Origin: a virus
Virus record (IMG/VR): IMGVR_UViG_3300042894_002178
Location: 1 to 31,539 of that record
Direction: 5' to 3' (one strand)
Length of the DNA: 31,539 bases
The first letter of the stretch is position 1. Each line of letters starts with the position of its first letter. A program made the translations under genes and the position numbers. Positions 5,760 through 26,950 of this stretch are shown piece by piece. The notes beneath the pieces are model-generated. The model made no database searches. It worked only from the letters and a program-made list of their open reading frames with translations, and was not told the DNA's origin.

Positions 5760-6551
5760 TTAAATTGTTTCAAAGTCAATAACTTCAAACTGATGACCAT
5801 GATTTTCTTGTTCTTGTTTACTGAATTCTTTCAAGGTCAATTTCAATGTTCTTCCTTTGATTTTTGTTGATGCTGGATTATTTTCTTTTCGTGGTAATGC
5901 ATACGAATATCCATTGTATGACATTTGTGTGAAACGTGGAAAAATTACATCAGTAATATATTTTCCATCAATTTCAATTCTCAATGTTCCATTTGATGAT
6001 AAATTTCGAACACAATCAAATTCAAGTGTCATGGTTTTTTTGATTGTTTGAATAACTGATTCACGTGCATGAATACCATTGCATTGTTCAATTGTAAACA
6101 ATGATTCTGAACCATCTTCATGTTTCACAACACCAAATTCACCAGAATTCAAAAGAACTTGTTTTGCAAATTGATTTGATGTTTCTGAAAAATACCAGAA
6201 CAAATATTTGATGTCAGTGCATTCAGAAATTTTTTGGTCATCGTATTTTCCAAACTGAAAAACAGAACATTCTGATTTGTTCAATTCACAATAATTCTTT
6301 GCAGTTGTTGACCATGTTCTTGTTCCACGAAGACTTTCATCAATGAAAAATTCACTGATTCCTTTTGCTTGAACTTTTTCAATTGCTTTGTCTTTGCAGA
6401 TGGACAACTTTCCACAATATGTGAAAGTTGTTTTTGTTCCACTGACTGAATATTGACCATTGACTTCTGAATAAACATAGTCATTCTGAACATTCCACAA
6501 TGTGAAAAATTTTGTTGCAAATCCGATTCCATAAGTTGTTCCAGTCTTCAT
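5760..6551 (-). CDS. Hypothetical early protein, Cys-containing (263 aa)
   Basis: The largest gene of the early block; no family recognised. It begins TGTTYGIGFATKFFTLWNV (3-21), followed by a strand-rich region with cysteines near 46, 52, 88, 95 and 111 that could in part bind metal, although no classic zinc-finger spacing is present. The C-terminal third is also beta-rich. The start is preceded by AAAAACAGAAAATC, so the ATG at 6549-6551 is well supported. It lies between two small early genes and is probably transcribed from the promoter at 6883. Confidence 0.7.
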   Translation of the reverse strand: MKTGTTYGIGFATKFFTLWNVQNDYVYSEVNGQYSVSGTKTTFTYCGKLSICKDKAIEKVQAKGISEFFIDESLRGTRTWSTTAKNYCELNKSECSVFQFGKYDDQKISECTDIKYLFWYFSETSNQFAKQVLLNSGEFGVVKHEDGSESLFTIEQCNGIHARESVIQTIKKTMTLEFDCVRNLSSNGTLRIEIDGKYITDVIFPRFTQMSYNGYSYALPRKENNPASTKIKGRTLKLTLKEFSKQEQENHGHQFEVIDFETI

Positions 6552-8741: not shown

Positions 8742-10232
8742 TCAGAAGTGTGTTCTTTTGTTTTTGTATTTGTCACCAACTTTGCAAGTCAAAATTGCAT
8801 ATCTTGACAAAGGAAGATAATTCAATTGTGCAGATTCTTCAAGAATGACTGGAAGGTCTTGAATTCGATATGAATGATTGTGTGCATTGTAGTCTGATAT
8901 GAACAAATCATTTTCTGACAATAAGAACAATTCAATCAAAGGTCTGGTGAAACATTCATAAACTGGTTCAGTGATGATTTCATATTGATTCAAATTTTCA
9001 CGAATCACGCTTTTCATTTCACGATTTTGATAAATTATATTGTCAATTTCAGTGTTTGGTTGTCGATTTCCGATAAAACCATAAAAACGAAATGATGATT
9101 CAACATTCGAATCAGTGAAATCAATTTGTTCGACTTCATGATATGCATTGAAGAATGCACGAACACGTGCAGTTTTCAAAGTGTTTTGAATTGAATATTT
9201 CTGCAATTTGAATTTTCCCCAAATTACAAAACCAACAATACCACTGATTTCATAATTAATTTTCAATGTGTAGCATCCTTCACCATCTGTATTCAATACA
9301 TCTTTCCATTTAATTGTTGAATAGAATGCAAAAGGTTCTTTGATGAATGGTTGTGGTATTGGAATATAATTTGTTGGATTTCCATTGGAATCTTCCAGAA
9401 TAAATGTCATGATGTCAGCAGAATCAGAAAGTTTCATCCATGCAGATGTCACATCATTTTCAAAAGTTGATGATGAACCATTTGCAAAAACCAAGTATTC
9501 GCATTGACAACAACCTTTCAGTCCTCGATTTGGTTCTTCAAAGTTTTCTGGAAGTTTTATTGCATCGTATTCACGATAAATTCTTTCTTCAATTCCACAA
9601 TTTTTACATTCAAGTGCAGTTGTCGTTATTCTCAAATATTTCCAAATTGAATACCATTGATTTGAATCACTAAAAGGACAATTCGAATCGTAATTCAAAT
9701 ATGAAAGGATACCATTAAGGTCTGATTTGAATGTCCATTGTATTCCATCCCAAATTATATGAAAATTATCCATTCCATAACCAATGTCACCAGTCCAAGA
9801 ATAAGAATTTCTTCCATTTTCAGTTCCAGTGATTTGAAGTTCAAAAGTTGTTATTGTTGTATTATACCCAATTTTAATGTCAATTCCACAATTACATGAA
9901 TCTTCAATTGGTGGTTCTGGAACACAATCAGATGTAGTAAACTCGTCAAATATACCACCTGGACCCCATACCGGCATACTTCCTAAAGGTGGACATGGTG
10001 GTAAAGAATTTTTCCATGCAGTTGCCATTGGATTTGGAGGTGACCCTAAACCACCAACTGAAACTTCCCATTCACCACCTCCCGTTGGATTATAATAAAG
10101 AAAATAATCTATTCCTAAATAATTCCATTGATAATAGTTTTCACCATTAAATGTACCTGAAACATTTATTTCAATCGTTGTAGAAGTTAGTTCATCACGA
10201 AGTCTGAACGTAATACTGACACAATCACACAT
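8742..10232 (-). CDS. Mosaic tail adhesin with duplicated Cys-rich N-terminal domains (496 aa)
   Basis: Residues 5-61 and 118-174 look like diverged copies of one beta domain: SGTFNGENYYQW (25-36) aligns with TGTENGRNSYSW (136-147), and GEWEVS with IQWTFKS. Between them is a Pro/Gly-rich linker (64-113). Cysteines are frequent up to about residue 240 (CDC, CNCG, CKNCG, CCQC). The C-terminal half (about 280-496) is a separate strand-rich domain ending ILTCKVGDKYKNKRTHF. The first 100 codons use TTA, ATA, GGA, GGG and ACG codons uncommon in the rest of the window, suggesting recent acquisition. Last large tail gene, so a receptor-binding or tail-tip role is likely but inferred. Confidence 0.7.
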   Translation of the reverse strand: MCDCVSITFRLRDELTSTTIEINVSGTFNGENYYQWNYLGIDYFLYYNPTGGGEWEVSVGGLGSPPNPMATAWKNSLPPCPPLGSMPVWGPGGIFDEFTTSDCVPEPPIEDSCNCGIDIKIGYNTTITTFELQITGTENGRNSYSWTGDIGYGMDNFHIIWDGIQWTFKSDLNGILSYLNYDSNCPFSDSNQWYSIWKYLRITTTALECKNCGIEERIYREYDAIKLPENFEEPNRGLKGCCQCEYLVFANGSSSTFENDVTSAWMKLSDSADIMTFILEDSNGNPTNYIPIPQPFIKEPFAFYSTIKWKDVLNTDGEGCYTLKINYEISGIVGFVIWGKFKLQKYSIQNTLKTARVRAFFNAYHEVEQIDFTDSNVESSFRFYGFIGNRQPNTEIDNIIYQNREMKSVIRENLNQYEIITEPVYECFTRPLIELFLLSENDLFISDYNAHNHSYRIQDLPVILEESAQLNYLPLSRYAILTCKVGDKYKNKRTHF

Positions 10233-10235
10233 AAT

Positions 10236-10862
10236 TTATAATTTATCAACTGTAACAATCAATGATGGTGTTGCTGGATGTGGAACGGTCAAGTCTGGTG
10301 CAACTGATGGAATTGTTATTCCAAGTGCAGTCACTGACCACATCAACTGAATTTCGTCACCAGATGCACAAGTGACAAATATATTCCAAGATGCAACTGA
10401 ATATCTTGAATTTGCAACAACATTCAAGTGTGTGTTTGACATTGGAATATCAACACCATTTTTTCTGAACCAGATTGAAACTTGTTCACTTGAACCACCA
10501 CTTGTTCTATAAATTTGTGCAGAAAATTGAAGATTATAAACACCAGTAAATGGAATGAAAATAATTGTTGGATTTCCAAATGAATCATTTATTCTTGTTA
10601 TTCCATTCGAAATGTCTTCATGACTTATATTCATTGCTTTTGCAACATTAGTCAATGTGTGAACTTGTGTTGTTTCATCGTGGAAAGAAGCAATAATTTG
10701 TGGAATCATTTCAAGTGTTCTGTCAACAATGACATTTGCACTTAATTGTTTTGAAATCCAACCAGAATCTGTTTGAACATCACAATCAATCATCACTGGA
10801 AGTGATTGAACATCAGAAAGTGTTGCAACATCAAGATATTCGTGTATTTTTTCGTTTGCCAT
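10236..10862 (-). CDS. Tail adhesin with C1q/TNF-like jelly-roll head (208 aa)
   Basis: Residues 95-208 follow the C1q/TNF-like pattern of trimeric phage adhesins: FIPFTGVYNLQFSAQIYRTS (102-121), SEQVSIWFRKNGVDIPMSNT (125-144), VASWNIFVTCASGDEIQLMW (156-175) and a final strand LIVTVDKL. The N-terminal part (HEYLDVATLSDVQSLPVM, then IDCDVQ) probably attaches to the tail tip. Such proteins usually bind host surface glycans or proteins as trimers. It is followed after only 3 bases by the mosaic adhesin gene, so the two may act together in host recognition. Confidence 0.78.
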   Translation of the reverse strand: MANEKIHEYLDVATLSDVQSLPVMIDCDVQTDSGWISKQLSANVIVDRTLEMIPQIIASFHDETTQVHTLTNVAKAMNISHEDISNGITRINDSFGNPTIIFIPFTGVYNLQFSAQIYRTSGGSSEQVSIWFRKNGVDIPMSNTHLNVVANSRYSVASWNIFVTCASGDEIQLMWSVTALGITIPSVAPDLTVPHPATPSLIVTVDKL

Positions 10863-19225: not shown

Positions 19226-19681
19226 TTATTTTGCAGTTTTTAAACTTTTTTCGAATTCCTTCATCATGTCAAAGTATTCACGTGTTGTGATTTTTTTTGC
19301 ATCAATCCATTGATTCATCCATTTAGACAAATGAATCAGTGTTTGTTCGATTGTCATTCCATTTTTATTGTTGTTGACCAAATTTTCCAGTCTTGCAATT
19401 TGCATTTCAACTTCTGTTAATTTGAACCGATTTCTGGTCAATACGAAATCAAGTTCCAGAAGTGTTTTTTTGTGCATTGTTTTTAATAGTTTGATGTACA
19501 TTTCAGAAAGACCAAATTCTTTGATATAAGAATCAAAAATCATTTCAAAGTGTAATTCATCCAAAAAGTTATTTCCATGCTTCAAATCTTTCCTTACAAA
19601 TCGAATTTGACCACTTGTGCATTGAATCCAATTCTTCAATGGAAGGTCATCAATATTATTGTAGTAACTTATTGACTTCAT
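19226..19681 (-). CDS. Hypothetical tail-assembly protein upstream of the tape measure (151 aa)
   Basis: I place the start at the ATG 19679-19681 (KSISYYNNIDDLPLKNWIQC), overlapping the preceding gene by 26 bases; a longer reading would cover far more of that gene with an implausibly Lys-rich leader. The rest is helical (MYIKLLKTMHKKTLLELDF, then EVEMQIARLENLVNN). Its place just before the tape measure is typical of tail assembly chaperones, which coat the tape measure before tube polymerisation. No slippery frameshift site is evident. Confidence 0.6.
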   Translation of the reverse strand: MKSISYYNNIDDLPLKNWIQCTSGQIRFVRKDLKHGNNFLDELHFEMIFDSYIKEFGLSEMYIKLLKTMHKKTLLELDFVLTRNRFKLTEVEMQIARLENLVNNNKNGMTIEQTLIHLSKWMNQWIDAKKITTREYFDMMKEFEKSLKTAK

Positions 19682-20117
19682 CGATGAATCTTTTTTTGAT
19701 TTCAACTGCAAGTTTTTCTTTGTTTTCATCAGTAAGTCCGATAATACCTTCACCATATTGGTCAAAAAGGTCTGTTTTTTTTCCATCTTCATCAATTTTG
19801 ATTGGTTGTGCTTCAATTATAAATGAATCATTCAACACAACAATTTTCATCGAATCGTAAAATGCACCAGTGTCAAAAAGTGTGTAAGGTGTTCCAGCTT
19901 CTTTTTCTGGATTCAACATTTCAGTCCATTCAGAATACAATCCAATGATGTCACCATCTTCATCAATTCCTTTTTTGAATAATTGGTCTTGTTGAATCAT
20001 TTCAAGAATCATCTTTGTCAATGTCTTATCCATGAATACTTTGTGCCAAATATCTTGTGTCCGAATTGCTCGGAATTTATTCAAAACTGCACCAAGTTCT
20101 GTCTTCATCAAATCCAT
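19656..20117 (-). CDS. Tail completion / neck protein candidate (153 aa)
   Basis: Contains TPYTLFDTGAFYDSMKIVV (about 76-94) and a following strand pair, reminiscent of the DTG-x-(L/F)-x-x-S(I/M) signature of HK97-gp10-like tail completion proteins. The rest is DLFDQYGEGIIGLTDENKE and a C-terminal helix. Such proteins sit at the head-tail interface. The resemblance is short, so the call is tentative. It is the first gene after a hairpin terminator, with a promoter-like box only 4 bases from its ATG. Confidence 0.55.
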   Translation of the reverse strand: MDLMKTELGAVLNKFRAIRTQDIWHKVFMDKTLTKMILEMIQQDQLFKKGIDEDGDIIGLYSEWTEMLNPEKEAGTPYTLFDTGAFYDSMKIVVLNDSFIIEAQPIKIDEDGKKTDLFDQYGEGIIGLTDENKEKLAVEIKKRFIDEVNKLLQ

Positions 20118-20187: not shown

Positions 20188-20541
20188 TTATTCAATGACT
20201 TCTGTCACTTCTTGTCTAATGACTGGAACTTTGAATTTGTTGTTCCATTTTTCAATTTCCATTTCAAAAACTCGATTCGTTCTTTCAAATGATTGTGCAT
20301 TTTTTACTTTGAAAGTCTTTAATAAAAACATTTTCAAGTCACCAGATTTTTGCAATTCCAAAACATTCACTGAATATTTTCCTGAAACAATCTGGAATGT
20401 TGATTGAAACAATGCAACAATTCGTTTTTGTGGAATTTTTCCATTTTCGGTGAAGTATTTCACTGCACTTCTGACATCCTTGAATGTTCTCATTCCTTGT
20501 TCATTGAATGGAATCATCAGTGTTGGTTTTTTCTTTGCCAT
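20188..20541 (-). CDS. Tail assembly chaperone candidate (117 aa)
   Basis: Follows the tail-tube gene, where siphophage chaperones are usually coded. The product is basic and helical (MRTFKDVRSAVKYFTENGK, then FLLKTFKVKNAQSFER) with an acidic end (RQEVTEVIE). No family recognised; the call rests on position, size and helical look. It is the last gene before the internal terminator. Confidence 0.5.
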   Translation of the reverse strand: MAKKKPTLMIPFNEQGMRTFKDVRSAVKYFTENGKIPQKRIVALFQSTFQIVSGKYSVNVLELQKSGDLKMFLLKTFKVKNAQSFERTNRVFEMEIEKWNNKFKVPVIRQEVTEVIE

Positions 20542-20551
20542 TTTTTAAGAA

Positions 20552-21442
20552 TTAAGCAGTCCAAGTGTATGAACCAGTAAAACCAGACTTGATGATTGTG
20601 ATTGTGTAATCAGTTAAGGCAACAAAAGCAAAAGACAATGTGTAATTTCCATCAACATTTTCAACAACTGAAATTGGTGACAATATACCACCAGCATCTG
20701 TCAATTGGAAGTCAGCAGTCACTGCACCAATAAATTTGATTGCGTTAAATGCAGTACCATAATCAAGAACTGCATCAAAAGTGATGTCAGTCAATGTTTC
20801 AACTGAATTGATTGCATTCACATCAACAAGACCTTCCAAATCATTGAAGTTGATTCCAGCTTCTGTCGGTGTCACCATGTACATTGTTGACTCATCAAAC
20901 AATCTGTCAAAGTCAAAAGCCACCATGATTTTTGAAGTTGTTGTGTCCGTTGCGAACATGTATTTCGGGTCAAATGAAGGATTGTCCACTGGTATTGGGA
21001 ACAAGAAACCATTCACTTTTGAACCGACAAGATTTCCATTCACATCCACGATGAAAACACCAAAATCAACACATCGGTTGTTCTGTAATTTTCCAAGCAA
21101 TGTTGGTGAAGAATCTTCTGACCATAATTCACCAGAAAAACTTCTTTTCCCTTGACGAATGTACACCATTCTTCCAGAATTTGCTTCTTCAAATGTTGTG
21201 TCTGCTTTTGCAAGTTCAACATTTTCGAATGCTGGAAGTGGAAACCATCTTTTTGATGCATCCAATTCATTCACCAAATCATCCCAAACTGGAATTGGTG
21301 CAGATAAATCAATCGAATTCAAAGTTCCATCAATTGCTTTCAAAGGAACAAGAATCAATTTCGAAGTAACCGATTGAATCGGTACACAATTCGGTCTTCC
21401 AGTATTGGACAAACCTGAATCACAATTACATCCTAATGACAT
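20552..21442 (-). CDS. Major tail (tube) protein candidate with C-terminal Ig-like domain (296 aa)
   Basis: The N-terminus is Cys-rich (SLGCNCDSGLSNTGRPNC). The middle (about 25-200) is strand-rich, with KRSFSGELWSEDS and a FGVFIVDVNGNLVG strand pair, compatible with a tube-forming fold. Residues about 212-296 look like an added Ig-like domain (VETLTDITFDAVLDYG, LSPISVVENVDGNYTLSFAF, ending SGFTGSYTWTA), as often decorates siphophage tubes. Position between neck and tape-measure genes supports this. No sheath gene is present nearby, so the tail should be non-contractile. Confidence 0.7.
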   Translation of the reverse strand: MSLGCNCDSGLSNTGRPNCVPIQSVTSKLILVPLKAIDGTLNSIDLSAPIPVWDDLVNELDASKRWFPLPAFENVELAKADTTFEEANSGRMVYIRQGKRSFSGELWSEDSSPTLLGKLQNNRCVDFGVFIVDVNGNLVGSKVNGFLFPIPVDNPSFDPKYMFATDTTTSKIMVAFDFDRLFDESTMYMVTPTEAGINFNDLEGLVDVNAINSVETLTDITFDAVLDYGTAFNAIKFIGAVTADFQLTDAGGILSPISVVENVDGNYTLSFAFVALTDYTITIIKSGFTGSYTWTA

Positions 21443-21483: not shown

Positions 21484-22170
21484 CTAACATTTACAATTTT
21501 CTTTGTACTTCACCAGTGTTAAACGTAATTCAACACCAGATAAGTCAGCATCCAGAATGCTTTGAAACATTCCATTTTCTTTTTCGACACCAAATCTTGA
21601 AAAAGTTAAGATTTCGAAGTCTTCAATACGTTTGAAAACACGATTTCCATGAACCGATTCGATGAAACCATTCACCAGTTCAGTCATCGGTCTGACAACA
21701 TTGTCACGATGGTCTTTTGTGTAGTAATTTCGAACATCTGTTTCATCAAGGAAGAAGATTCGAATTTCTGATTCGAATTCAATTGTTGATTCCCTTCCAA
21801 ATTGTTTGAATCTGATGAAATCCAAATACCACACAATTGGTGTTTTTGCAGTGACATCATTTGTGACAATTGTCCATTCACGATTTGCAGACATTTTTGT
21901 TCCAGTGATGAAATATGGTTCACCGATTGAAATAATTCCTTCCAGTGGTGGATTTGTTTGAACAATTGGTGTTGCAACAATCCATTCATCAATTGCGAAA
22001 TCAATGACCATGTATTCATTTCCAGAAGAATCAGTGACCTTTTTTCCTTTTCGAATCCATTTTGTTTTGCAGACATTTGTCCGATTCAACACAATATCGA
22101 ATTTTCCGACAATTGTGTTGTCGATGTCCAGAACAATCTGGTTTATAATATTTGAAAGGTCTTGATTCAT
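21484..22170 (-). CDS. Neck / head-closure protein candidate (228 aa)
   Basis: I chose the ATG at 22168-22170, overlapping the connector stop (ATGA); the longer reading starts with TTG. The product is mixed alpha/beta with VCKTKWIRKGKKVTD (near 33-47), IIFSIGEPYF-like strands in the middle (GIISIGEPYFITGTK) and a polar C-terminus ending ENCKC. The place between the connector and tail tube is that of a head-closure or tail-terminator protein. No named family recognised. Confidence 0.55.
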   Translation of the reverse strand: MNQDLSNIINQIVLDIDNTIVGKFDIVLNRTNVCKTKWIRKGKKVTDSSGNEYMVIDFAIDEWIVATPIVQTNPPLEGIISIGEPYFITGTKMSANREWTIVTNDVTAKTPIVWYLDFIRFKQFGRESTIEFESEIRIFFLDETDVRNYYTKDHRDNVVRPMTELVNGFIESVHGNRVFKRIEDFEILTFSRFGVEKENGMFQSILDADLSGVELRLTLVKYKENCKC

Positions 22171-23399
22171 ATCCAATACGCAAAAAGTTTCTGAATTCCA
22201 TTGAATTTTCGAAAGTCACCAGCACCAACTTTCACGATTTCAATCATGCAATTGTTGTCACCACCATCGATGATGAATTGTTCATTTACAAGATAATCGA
22301 TTCCATCTTCATTGATTTCAATCGAAGTGATTTCACCATTTGTCAAAGTGTCAATGTCAAATGTTGCATCAAAATTCCCACCATTGATTGTAATTGTTTC
22401 ACCGATTGCATATCCAAAACCAGTTTGAACAATTGTAATTGACAAAACACCACCAGAACCATCTTGAATGATGTCCACTTCCAAACCACTTCCAGAACCA
22501 CCAGTTGTTGTCACATTTTGTGAATCAACATATCCAGTTCCAGCACTTACTGGTGTGAAAGTAGCACAACCATCAATTCCAAGTGCAATGATGTCACATG
22601 TCAAGTCTGAACCGACTGATGAATTGATGACATTTGTGACAATAAGTGTTGCATCTTGACCACCAGCATCAATTGTGATGATGTCATCGACTGCATATCC
22701 ATTTCCAGCACTTGCAATTGTGAAAGAATCGATTCCACCAGAACCATCTTGAATGATGTTTAAAGTCAAACCGATTCCATTTCCACCAAGTGTTGGAACA
22801 TTCAATGCATTCACATATCCAGTTCCAATTGAAGTCAATGTCATTTCAGTTGTCATTCCAATTTGATTCACCTGAACATTGTTTCCAGTTAAATAACCAG
22901 AACCATGTGTTGTTTGTGATATTTGAACAACTTGACCAAAATGCAATGTCGAATTCAAAATAATGAATGACCGAATTGCATTGTATGTCTTCACTGCTTC
23001 ATTGTAACGTGTGAAAATCATTGAATTTAATGTGGTGACCTTCTTTGAATTTTCTGATAATTGTGCAACATTTCCAAATGGTGTTTGTTGGTTCATCTGG
23101 TCTTTCGAATACTCAAAATAAATGAATCCTTTCAACATTTCAAGAATACCTTCTGAAATCAATAAATGGTACAAATTCACATTCTGATGGAATTCATCGA
23201 ATATCTGAATGAAATTCGGTGATTCTGGTGCATTGTTGACATCAAGGTCAGCAATGAAATCATCAAAAAGTGTTGCACCAAACAATTCAATCAAATATCT
23301 TTTTTCATATTTGTTGATGTAGTCTTGCAATTTTTGCTGGTCATAAATACCAGTGTGCAATTCATATTTTCCAGTGAAATCTTGTGGTGTTAAAAACAT
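22167..23399 (-). CDS. Head-tail connector candidate with inserted GxGY beta-repeat domain (410 aa)
   Basis: Residues 1-150 are helical (KLQDYINKYEKRYLIELFGA, 23-42; IFTRYNEAVKTYNAIRSFII) and resemble small head-tail adaptors coded after the capsid in Bacteroidetes phages. The last 17 residues (GDFRKFNGIQKLFAYWI) look like the end of the same domain. Between them, about 155-393, lies a Gly-rich beta region with GxxY turns at 166, 192, 232, 287, 327 and 366 and two long repeats (192-250 and 287-345), each containing LNIIQDGSGG or VDIIQDGSGG. This looks like a decoration or adhesin-like insert in a connector. The connector role is inferred from position and helical part. Confidence 0.65.
   Translation of the reverse strand: MFLTPQDFTGKYELHTGIYDQQKLQDYINKYEKRYLIELFGATLFDDFIADLDVNNAPESPNFIQIFDEFHQNVNLYHLLISEGILEMLKGFIYFEYSKDQMNQQTPFGNVAQLSENSKKVTTLNSMIFTRYNEAVKTYNAIRSFIILNSTLHFGQVVQISQTTHGSGYLTGNNVQVNQIGMTTEMTLTSIGTGYVNALNVPTLGGNGIGLTLNIIQDGSGGIDSFTIASAGNGYAVDDIITIDAGGQDATLIVTNVINSSVGSDLTCDIIALGIDGCATFTPVSAGTGYVDSQNVTTTGGSGSGLEVDIIQDGSGGVLSITIVQTGFGYAIGETITINGGNFDATFDIDTLTNGEITSIEINEDGIDYLVNEQFIIDGGDNNCMIEIVKVGAGDFRKFNGIQKLFAYWI
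22450..22474. repeat. Direct repeat copy 1 in the connector insert
   Basis: A 25-base exact direct repeat with 22735-22759. It lies within longer imperfect repeats that code two IIQDGSGG-containing modules, offset by 285 bases (95 codons, in frame). Confidence 0.85.
22735..22759. repeat. Direct repeat copy 2 in the connector insert
   Basis: Partner of 22450-22474, identical over 25 bases. Together they mark an in-frame internal duplication that could expand or contract by recombination. Confidence 0.85.
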
Positions 23400-23403
23400 C
23401 TTT

Positions 23404-23709
23404 CTATTTTTTTATAAGTTTTCCAAGTCCCTTTTTCAAGAAAATTTTCAGCATTTCACCAGAAATCTTCCAGATTGTTCCTTTTGGCATGTGTTTATTT
23501 CCAAATGATTCAAATTCGTATTCTTTCAAATCATCAATTTCGATGTCCAATTTCAGACCACCTTCATCTTTTGTGAAGTGTGCATCAACTTTTTTGGTGT
23601 CAACATCTATTTTGACATTTCCTTCTGAATCACGATGGAATTCAATGTCAACATTTTTGGTGTCAATACTGATGTCAATCGGTTTTTTTGGTCTTTTTGG
23701 TGTCTTCAT
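23404..23709 (-). CDS. Small beta-repeat protein after the capsid gene (101 aa)
   Basis: Residues 11-66 form three tandem units of about 20: DISIDTKNVDIEFHRDSEGN, VKIDVDTKKVDAHFTKDEGG, and LKLDIEIDDLKEYEFE. The pattern suggests alternating beta strands and turns. A basic start (KTPKRPKKP) and a basic amphipathic C-terminus (LKIFLKKGLGKLIKK) flank them. Placed between major capsid and connector genes, it could be a capsid decoration or head accessory protein. No family recognised. Confidence 0.6.
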   Translation of the reverse strand: MKTPKRPKKPIDISIDTKNVDIEFHRDSEGNVKIDVDTKKVDAHFTKDEGGLKLDIEIDDLKEYEFESFGNKHMPKGTIWKISGEMLKIFLKKGLGKLIKK

Positions 23710-23756: not shown

Positions 23757-24950
23757 TTAGATTGCAGGGTCAAGTGCAGTGATTGCAGTTGCAATTGTTC
23801 CACGAACAAATGCATTCACATCATTCAATTTCACATAATGAACTGCACGTGCTTCTGCAAGGATTGACACCATGTTTCTTTGGAAATCATCATTCACATA
23901 TCCAACTTGAATATTCACGTTTTCACGTATACGTAAGTTTGATTTTGTCATGTCACCTACCAAGAAATTTCCAGCAGTCATGTATGTTGTTGAAACAACA
24001 ATCAGATTTGCAACACGCATTTCATTGTTTTGTGATGGGTAAAAAATTGGTGTTGTGTATTCACCAGATGTTGTTTTTGTCAATTGCATTCTTGCAACAT
24101 CAACTGGATGTAAAACAACATGTGTTGGTGTGAATTTTGCAGTTTCAATTTGTGACATTGCAACACGAATAACATCAAGAATGTTTGCAGTTGGAATTGT
24201 ATTTGCAAAAGTACCAGCAGAAAATAATGGTGCAAAAGAAAGAATTCCTTCCAAATCTGTACCACCAGCACCATTCAAAATTGAATTGTCAAGTGCAGAA
24301 AGAACACCTTGAACAAGGTCAGTGTTGATTTCATTTTGAACAAATGATAAATCTGACAACATTTCTTTTGAAACCTTCACGATTCCAGCAACTTTTTTCA
24401 CTTGCTTTGAAACTTCTGTATATTTCACCTCGTATTCAGTCTTCGCAACTGCTTCACCAGTCCATGCAGATTGTGGTTGTGCAGTTTGTTGAATGTATGT
24501 CACATACATTGAATTCGTTGTTCCACGATTCACTGCATTTTGCAACAAATTCACTTGTCTTGCAATACGATTGACATCAGTGTCAAGTTCAGACAATGCA
24601 CGTGTTCCAGTGTAGTCACCAGCAATTGTTGTGTCTGCTTTCACTTCAAGGTCAATATTCTTTCCAGATTTCAATCCTTCAAGATTCAATTCAATTGATT
24701 TTACGATTTGTTCGCTGAAACCAAGTGGTTTTGCAACATTGTGGAATGCTTTTTCAGACATTGCTTCAAGTTTTCCTTCCATCTTTGCAATTGCTTTTTC
24801 GATGTCATTGCTTTTTGTTTCAAGACTTTTCAATCCATCAACATCACTTTTCAATGCAGTCACTTCTTCTGATGTTACCATCGAAGTCATTTTTTCTTGA
24901 ATCAAGTTGTTTAATTTTTCGACAACTTGTTCTGGTGTTAAATTTTCCAT
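23757..24950 (-). CDS. Major capsid protein, HK97 fold
   Basis: The 397-residue protein has an N-terminal coiled-coil region (about 1-105; EEVTALKSDVDGLKSLETKS) that matches the scaffolding delta domain removed by the prohead protease. The mature part follows, with EVSKQVKKVAGIVKVSKEML, NSILNGAGGTDLEGIL, TPTHVVLHPVDVARMQLTKT and FLVGDMTKSNLRIRENVNI, all typical of the HK97-type capsid family (Phage_capsid). The C-terminus AEARAVHYVKLNDVNAFVRG fits the P-domain end. Cleavage probably lies near residue 105 (EVKAD), by inference. It follows the protease gene, the standard HK97-type order. Confidence 0.93.
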   Translation of the reverse strand: MENLTPEQVVEKLNNLIQEKMTSMVTSEEVTALKSDVDGLKSLETKSNDIEKAIAKMEGKLEAMSEKAFHNVAKPLGFSEQIVKSIELNLEGLKSGKNIDLEVKADTTIAGDYTGTRALSELDTDVNRIARQVNLLQNAVNRGTTNSMYVTYIQQTAQPQSAWTGEAVAKTEYEVKYTEVSKQVKKVAGIVKVSKEMLSDLSFVQNEINTDLVQGVLSALDNSILNGAGGTDLEGILSFAPLFSAGTFANTIPTANILDVIRVAMSQIETAKFTPTHVVLHPVDVARMQLTKTTSGEYTTPIFYPSQNNEMRVANLIVVSTTYMTAGNFLVGDMTKSNLRIRENVNIQVGYVNDDFQRNMVSILAEARAVHYVKLNDVNAFVRGTIATAITALDPAI

Positions 24951-25747: not shown

Positions 25748-26950
25748 TTATATTCCAAGCAATTGCTTCATTTCATCTGATGTCATGTCTATTCCAAGAA
25801 CAGACAATTTTTCAAGTGTTTCTGCTTTCAATTTCATGGTTGTTGCAACTGCAACTTCATCATCTTGCATCACTGGAAGATGGTCAAATTCTGCAATCAG
25901 TTTCAATCCTTCATCAGTCAATCCAATTTGTTGACCGATTGCATCGTACATTTGTTGTGTTTCTGGAATGATTGTGTCTTGATATGTCATTCTGATTGAA
26001 TCACGTACATTGGTGAATGTTGCACCTTTTTCAGTTGAAAATATGTTCAAGGACATTCCAAACGTGTCAATAATTGCAATCTTGTCAGCAGTCAATTCTT
26101 CAAACAACATCAGTTCTTTTGTAGGGAATGACATTGGCTTCCAGTCAACTTGACTTTCAGTGATAATCAATTCATCCTTCTGTCTTCTGAACCAGTCTTT
26201 TTGAATCTGTTTCTTTTCTTCTGGTGTCATTGGAATTGCACCACCCATGTCATTGTTTTGTGTTGACAAGATACCAATTGCACCAATATTTTCCAGAAGG
26301 ACATTTCGTTTGTGATAGGATGCTTTGATGTTTGATAATGGATATTTCAACGATTCCATTCTTGAAACTGGTTTAACAATGTTCATTCCATCATTGGTCA
26401 TCAGATAAATCAAATCATCAAATGAAATTGTTTCAGTGTTTTTGTCATCGTATTGGAACACAAAAGAATCAATCAGACCTTCTTGTTCCATCTGCTTCAA
26501 TTTCTTTCCTGAAAGATTGATTTGAATCTTGTTGGAAGGTAAAGGAACAAACAGATTTCTGATGTCAAATGACCTTTTTGGTGCATAAATGAACGAATTT
26601 GAATACAATGCATCTTGAACTGATAAGGAATACACCAAATCAGACCATGATTGAACTGGATTCGGTTTGTTCAGGACATCATTGAACCAGTGATTGGTGA
26701 CTTCATTTCCATCTGCATCAACAAGAAGTGGTTTGTTGGATGACATCATTGATGCTCTTCTGTCAATAACCATTCGAAGTTCAGGAATTTCCAGATACAA
26801 TTTCCACCAGTCATTTGTGTCAATCCAGACTGCTTCCTTCACACCCCAAATTTGATTGACAAATGGAAAGATTCGATTCATATCATCAATGATTCGATTG
26901 TCTGAACTATTTCCCAAACCGAAAAATGCATCAAAAAAGTTAACATTCAT
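25748..26950 (-). CDS. Portal protein (HK97-type)
   Basis: The 400-residue product lies between terminase and protease. It has the portal-like run WWKLYLEIPELRMVIDRRAS (48-67), SWSDLVYSLSVQDALYSNSF (101-120), the GMNIVKPVSRMESLKYPL region near the middle, and EEKKQIQKDWFRRQKDELII. A Met/Asp-rich helix ends it (LSVLGIDMTSDEMKQLLGI). The dodecameric portal is the DNA channel and docking site for terminase and connector. Size and order match HK97-type portals. Confidence 0.88.
   Translation of the reverse strand: MNVNFFDAFFGLGNSSDNRIIDDMNRIFPFVNQIWGVKEAVWIDTNDWWKLYLEIPELRMVIDRRASMMSSNKPLLVDADGNEVTNHWFNDVLNKPNPVQSWSDLVYSLSVQDALYSNSFIYAPKRSFDIRNLFVPLPSNKIQINLSGKKLKQMEQEGLIDSFVFQYDDKNTETISFDDLIYLMTNDGMNIVKPVSRMESLKYPLSNIKASYHKRNVLLENIGAIGILSTQNNDMGGAIPMTPEEKKQIQKDWFRRQKDELIITESQVDWKPMSFPTKELMLFEELTADKIAIIDTFGMSLNIFSTEKGATFTNVRDSIRMTYQDTIIPETQQMYDAIGQQIGLTDEGLKLIAEFDHLPVMQDDEVAVATTMKLKAETLEKLSVLGIDMTSDEMKQLLGI

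Follow-up and report, generated by a model that had tools for sequence, protein, structure and literature searches.

Head-tail adaptors are regarded as conserved parts of phage assembly. SPP1 gp15 has a four-helix core, an unstructured loop between helices and a flexible C-terminus which inserts into the portal clip (PMC9701221). Two further accounts describe a tube domain, an adaptor loop and a C-terminal hook in the RcGTA adaptor (PMC7296036), and a helical domain, a beta-sandwich and a lumen loop in neck 1 (gp14) of phage Milano (PMC10491603). In Milano, RcGTA and R4C, the added beta-domain of the adaptor is used on the capsid vertex (PMC10491603, PMC7296036, PMC10276861). Adaptors with added beta-domains are already known, as is the domain shuffling of neck passage proteins in Lactococcus phages (PMC10684548). 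What is new here, as far as the searchable literature shows, is a size-variable repeat cassette that is exchanged between the last helix and the C-terminal tail of a protein in the adaptor slot.

The protein in question is encoded in a 31,539-base IMG/VR virus record (the window), in which a preliminary description had placed an ORF at 22167-23399; the ORF is present there, on the minus strand (Table 1). The gene order runs portal, protease, capsid protein, small ORF, target and then tail genes, so that the target occupies the slot expected of an adaptor, after the capsid protein and before the stopper and tail genes, with one small ORF intervening. The portal gene lies at 25748-26950. No family match was given by Pfam or PHROGs for the gene that follows it. 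The order from capsid to tape measure is shared with Cellulophaga phi19:1, Polaribacter Freya_1 and Danklef_1, Tenacibaculum JQ and Leeuwenhoekiella Arctus_1, with phrog_6195 common to the tail gene at 19656-20117 and phi19:1 gp094, and the head part of the order also matches Olleya Harreka_1. Freya and Danklef are siphoviral and Harreka is myoviral (PMC8776804). The phage studied here is probably siphovirus-like and a phage of Bacteroidota.

Table 1. Coordinates of the target gene, its predicted parts and its neighbours in the window.
Feature	Position	Strand	Basis
Entire ORF (410 aa), predicted to be a head-tail adaptor with an inserted beta-repeat domain	22167..23399	-	ORF list, AlphaFold2
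Core helical domain, residues 1-152	22944..23399	-	AlphaFold2, homologues, profile relation to structural proteins of flavophages
Conserved loop, residues 104-122, between last two helices	23034..23090	-	Compared with adaptor/lumen loop (PMC9701221, PMC10491603)
C-terminal tail (residues 393-410), conserved, putative hook for the portal clip	22170..22223	-	Conservation; compare PMC9701221, PMC7296036
Insert cassette, residues 153-392, GxGY beta-repeats	22224..22943	-	
Repeat copy 1, residues 187-257	22629..22841	-	Short-form module profile at 185-255, E 2e-18
Repeat copy 2, residues 282-352	22344..22556	-	Short-form module profile at 281-349, E 2.5e-20
Exact repeat of 25 nt within copy 1	22735..22759	-	
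Exact repeat of 25 nt within copy 2	22450..22474	-	
ATGA stop/start overlap, target and next gene	22167..22170	-	
Major capsid protein, HK97 type, upstream; defines adaptor slot	23757..24950	-	PF05065 1.7e-35
Small ORF, 101 aa, between capsid protein and target	23404..23709	-	Flavophages: small ORF in equivalent position
Next gene, probable head-closure/neck protein	21484..22170	-	Position only, synteny

Profile comparison relates the core to a family of flavophage structural proteins comprising phi19:1 gp090 and its relatives (98.9%, P 2.8e-17, 154 columns), which are found in phages of Cellulophaga, Polaribacter, Olleya, Tenacibaculum and Leeuwenhoekiella, and also to phi46:1 gp08 (94.9%), a clear member of DUF6712 (1e-13). 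MS/MS underlies the annotation of both phi19:1 gp090 and phi46:1 gp08 as proteins of the virion. These DUF6712/phrog_24616 proteins share a related core with the target and, in phi19:1, the same gene slot, but they carry no repeat insert and the target itself lies below the Pfam cut-off. In searches of Pfam and PHROGs with the core no family exceeded its cut-off, the best homologues reaching 13.3-13.7 bits (E ~0.06) for DUF6712 (PF20459) against a curated cut-off of 25 bits. Given the profile match, the MS/MS-annotated homologues and the shared gene order, an adaptor role would be the best fit for the slot, and the target is most likely a small protein joining the phage head and tail. An unnamed DUF6712-related family of Bacteroidota phages is thereby tied to the adaptor position. 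Two other searches were uninformative: PDB sequence searches returned only chance matches (Cas9, glucokinase and aerolysin), and a scan of genome contigs for relatives (prophages) found none.

The AlphaFold2 model of the target, for which 31 sequences were supplied, has a mean pLDDT of 86.5 and a pTM of 0.70. It is helical to residue 148, with beta-strands from 157 to 391, and the core consists of helices at 21-40, 42-50, 61-67, 85-103 and 123-148 and a hairpin at 70-82. The loop at approximately 104-122 is mostly below pLDDT 50 in the monomer and belongs to the regions conserved across the family, with T106 and G109 invariant in the homologue alignments. The C-terminal tail (393-410) is retained in long, short and insert-less homologues alike. 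One short-form homologue (L035, 4001-4822) has unrelated sequence in place of this tail, reflecting either a contig-end error or genuine loss of the hook. The predicted helix-helix-hairpin-helix-loop-helix layout resembles published descriptions of adaptors (PMC9701221, PMC10491603, PMC7296036), a likeness drawn between predicted secondary structure and published text. Judged by predicted secondary structure and tail conservation, the target would have the helical tube and inter-helix loop of an adaptor and a candidate C-terminal hook. It is like SPP1 gp15 and HK97 gp6 in lying after the capsid protein, in its small core of helices, the last of which are joined by a flexible loop, and in its conserved C-terminal segment; unlike them, it has a beta-insert before the hook, and its sequence is not detectably similar to that of gp6. 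Indeed, Phage_connect_1/HK97 gp6 (PF05135) gave no Pfam match and just 0.1-0.2% in hhalign, a comparison that is not decisive, since the gp6 alignment comprises few, closely related sequences and adaptors of this type are highly divergent. Foldseek provided no useful match to a solved adaptor, the full-length model being dominated by the beta-repeats.

The gene in the adaptor slot could instead encode a different virion protein of the neck or head vertex, for instance one that decorates the head or forms a collar. The missing gp6/PF05135 match would be in keeping with this, as would the 101-aa protein that shares the slot and the arrangement in phi46:1, which differs in that the gp08 gene lies just after the portal gene and not after a recognised capsid gene. 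We nevertheless think it very unlikely, given that insert-less members of the family are small, single-domain proteins in the adaptor slot of six flavophages and that the loop and tail layout, as modelled, resembles that of adaptors. A fibritin- or whisker-type collar fibre was also considered and rejected, as such fibres are encoded by a separate coiled-coil fibre gene and the target is a single ORF with a helical core and an insert predicted to be all-beta.

The preliminary description had read the protein as a small adaptor split by an insert, with residues 1-150 as its helical start and 394-410 as its short end, and had proposed a comparison with homologues lacking the insert. Such homologues exist, and this reading finds support: residues 1-150 are a separate domain of a family that occupies the connector slot, and the insert-less forms together with the precise cassette junctions described below favour the split. 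Homologues collected by searching with the core domain fall into three length classes according to what lies between core and tail: long (about 240 aa), short (a single module of about 75-80 aa, carried by many of them) and none. In the insert-less homologues (L049, L050 and L051) the last helix continues directly into the tail, and on these comparisons the middle region of the ORF is an insert. The AlphaFold2 model of L050 has a pLDDT of 53 and a fold search with it was uninformative; a further insert-less relative of 170 aa, BFVD A0A6J5MVB5, is 42% identical, with a TM of 0.75 on its own length. Length class requires at least five changes on the core tree, and the AU test rejects the hypothesis that the long form arose only once (p 7e-6). 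That the core accepts inserts of 0, ~75-80 and ~240 aa fits a projecting domain.

Exchange of the insert can be followed in pairs of related phages. Between the window and L010, DNA identity is 87.3% to residue 148 and 86.0% from residue 392, with an unalignable middle. Compared with G006, the whole contig of the L010 comparison, the window has 88% identity in the capsid protein, and none of its insert (0%) can be aligned; further stretches that fail to align include the C-terminal part of 20552-21442, 20188-20541, 10236-10862, parts of 8742-10232 and of the tape measure gene, and the ORF at 5760-6551. L021 and L025 are mostly 89-94% identical (about 91%) through the core and both flanks and unrelated between, while the insert of L021 is 78-99% identical to that of L030, the two phages being 46-69% identical elsewhere, and the core rejects a grouping of L021 with L030 (AU test, p 1.2e-4). 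L021 thus looks like L025's genes carrying L030's insert, a direct swap visible in the alignments. Taken at the level of sequence, these cases show related phages gaining, losing and trading the repeat domain as a precise cassette, with junctions at approximately 148-152 and 392-395. Insert recombination had also been suspected between L003 and L005 but was dropped, as the core data fail to reject that pairing (p 0.38).

The exchange bears on the main rival explanation, a capsid-clamping or stabilising role, in which the repeats would form a peripheral ring fastening the neck to the capsid at its five-fold vertex, bridging 12-fold and five-fold symmetry, without host contact. It draws on precedent, since solved adaptors with an added beta-domain touch the capsid protein (PMC10491603, PMC7296036, PMC10276861), and the R4C authors argue against an adsorption role (PMC10276861). 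However, the solved beta-domains are N-terminal or lie between early helices and not before the hook. In addition, L030-like and L025-like phages share an insert though their flanking DNA is only ~46-66% alike, and inserts differ between phages whose capsid proteins are 88% identical, so that matching to the capsid looks weak and we consider the clamp unlikely. More broadly, the adaptors of Milano (neck 1), T4, T7, RcGTA and R4C resemble the target in combining a helical adaptor with an added peripheral beta-domain, but that domain is placed elsewhere, and neither repeats nor cassette exchange are described in the portions of these sources consulted. The target also differs from the neck passage and collar proteins of Lactococcus phages, which are encoded by a separate accessory gene, whereas here the shuffled domain sits inside the connector-slot protein.

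In close pairs among the window, L002-L005, L007 and L008, dN/dS is 0.06-0.18 for the core and 0.34-0.61 for the insert, which is approximately 2-10 times the core value, yet below 1. Relaxed constraint therefore accounts for the insert's more rapid evolution no less well than diversifying selection does. If one takes the relaxed dN/dS together with the existence of homologues without the insert (L049-L051) and the freedom with which its presence, absence and size vary, the insert might be a nearly neutral or mildly stabilising decoration with no specific ligand, easily acquired since GxGY repeats recombine readily. We regard this as rather unlikely; inserts of ~240 aa persist in diverged phages with their frames intact and under purifying selection (dN/dS <1).

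The short-form module profile finds two full copies in the window protein as well as part copies, and copies 1 and 2 are 52% identical in amino acids over 71 residues. The large internal duplication noted in the preliminary description is accordingly present, with a 95-residue period that also appears as a 184-nt direct repeat (22359-22542 / 22644-22827, 70%, spacing 285 nt or 95 codons). Within it lies the exact 25-base repeat that had been reported at 22450 and 22735, where the longest in 300 dinucleotide shuffles was 16. The six GxxY turns are likewise found, at residues 166, 192, 232, 287, 327 and 366. These turns hold every one of the insert's six tyrosines; in 20,000 shuffles the mean was 1.0 and the highest count 5.

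Repeats of this kind had been described as better known from fibres and surface-binding virion proteins, which captures part of their distribution. The GxGY repeat matches phrog_18802 by profile (5e-14, best stretch at residues 277-356), and its relatives (phrog_18802, 697, 19630 and 460; E 5e-14 to 5e-6) are mostly cyanophage proteins. Some are fibre-like, but the repeat also occurs in cyanophage proteins annotated as 'virion structural', 'YadA domain' and baseplate-wedge, in the head-closure protein Hc2 (phrog_460) and, among uncultured phages, in further structural proteins. The cyanophage proteins share the repeat with the target, though there it belongs to large fibre, baseplate and other structural proteins and Hc2, and not to an adaptor. 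Spread in this way over varied virion proteins, it is a decoration repeat common to virion proteins, not a signature of adhesins. Pfam gave no match between the insert and a carbohydrate-binding family. Foldseek matches of the full-length model to the PDB were meaningless, and its lectin and CBM rows (prob 0.01-0.03) were noise. The nearest solved match to the repeat is the protruding domain I of the T4 tail-sheath protein gp18, which is non-significant against the PDB (E 0.11) and recurs in Pfam (E 0.014-0.023); it offers a weak lead to the repeat fold.

Considering these data together, on balance we favour a head-tail adaptor with an exchangeable, outward-facing GxGY domain between the last helix and the portal hook. 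Residues 1-152 would form the helical tube domain in a ring under the portal, the loop at 104-122 would face the stopper or lumen, and the last 18 residues would engage the portal clip as a hook, in the manner of SPP1 gp15 and RcGTA. A 12-subunit ring would then carry up to 12 outward copies of the repeat domain around the neck. We infer the adaptor identity, the 12 copies and the outward display; adaptor precedents are the reason for expecting the repeats to project outward, and display of the domain on the outside is likely. Natural deletion and exchange at fixed junctions suggest that assembly is independent of any one particular insert.

What the repeat domain does is the least certain part of this explanation. 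We tentatively propose an accessory surface function, either binding of the host surface or matrix or alteration of the exposed virion surface, because variation in the insert goes together with variation in tail and fibre parts, against a background of similar capsid protein and connector core. Adhesion or glycan binding by the repeats is possible. It is conceivable, if somewhat doubtful, that the adaptor ring acts as an exchangeable display platform, in which the GxGY cassette is traded between lineages as a unit to provide up to 12 copies of an accessory binding domain at the neck, which could change with no effect on what capsid and connector do. Before the portal hook, a domain that evolves fast and is exchanged horizontally would occupy a site unused in the solved adaptors compared here. 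If the domain is displayed, the neck would be a site of surface variation, like tail fibres, and may be a place where phages alter their outer surface. The natural pairs of the window with L010, and of L021, L025 and L030, supply the comparison for testing neck display.

Further variable genes were seen alongside the adaptor insert. The 296-aa tail protein at 20552-21442, the probable major tail protein by position, has ~30% of its gene unalignable in DNA to G006 and is otherwise 84-92% identical, the divergence being C-terminal. A 117-aa ORF (20188-20541) is present in the window and G002 and missing from G006, and a 263-aa ORF (5760-6551) has no alignable counterpart in G006 or G002, both close relatives. 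Between close relatives, the fibre-region ORF at 10236-10862 and the ORF at 8742-10232 show full or partial replacement, as the adaptor insert does. Among the tail genes, the ORFs at 19226-19816 and 19656-20117, which are in different frames, have ~160 nt in common, and phi19:1 gp093/gp094 and Freya1_21/22 overlap near the same place; the pair at 19226-20117 could be a tail-chaperone style arrangement.
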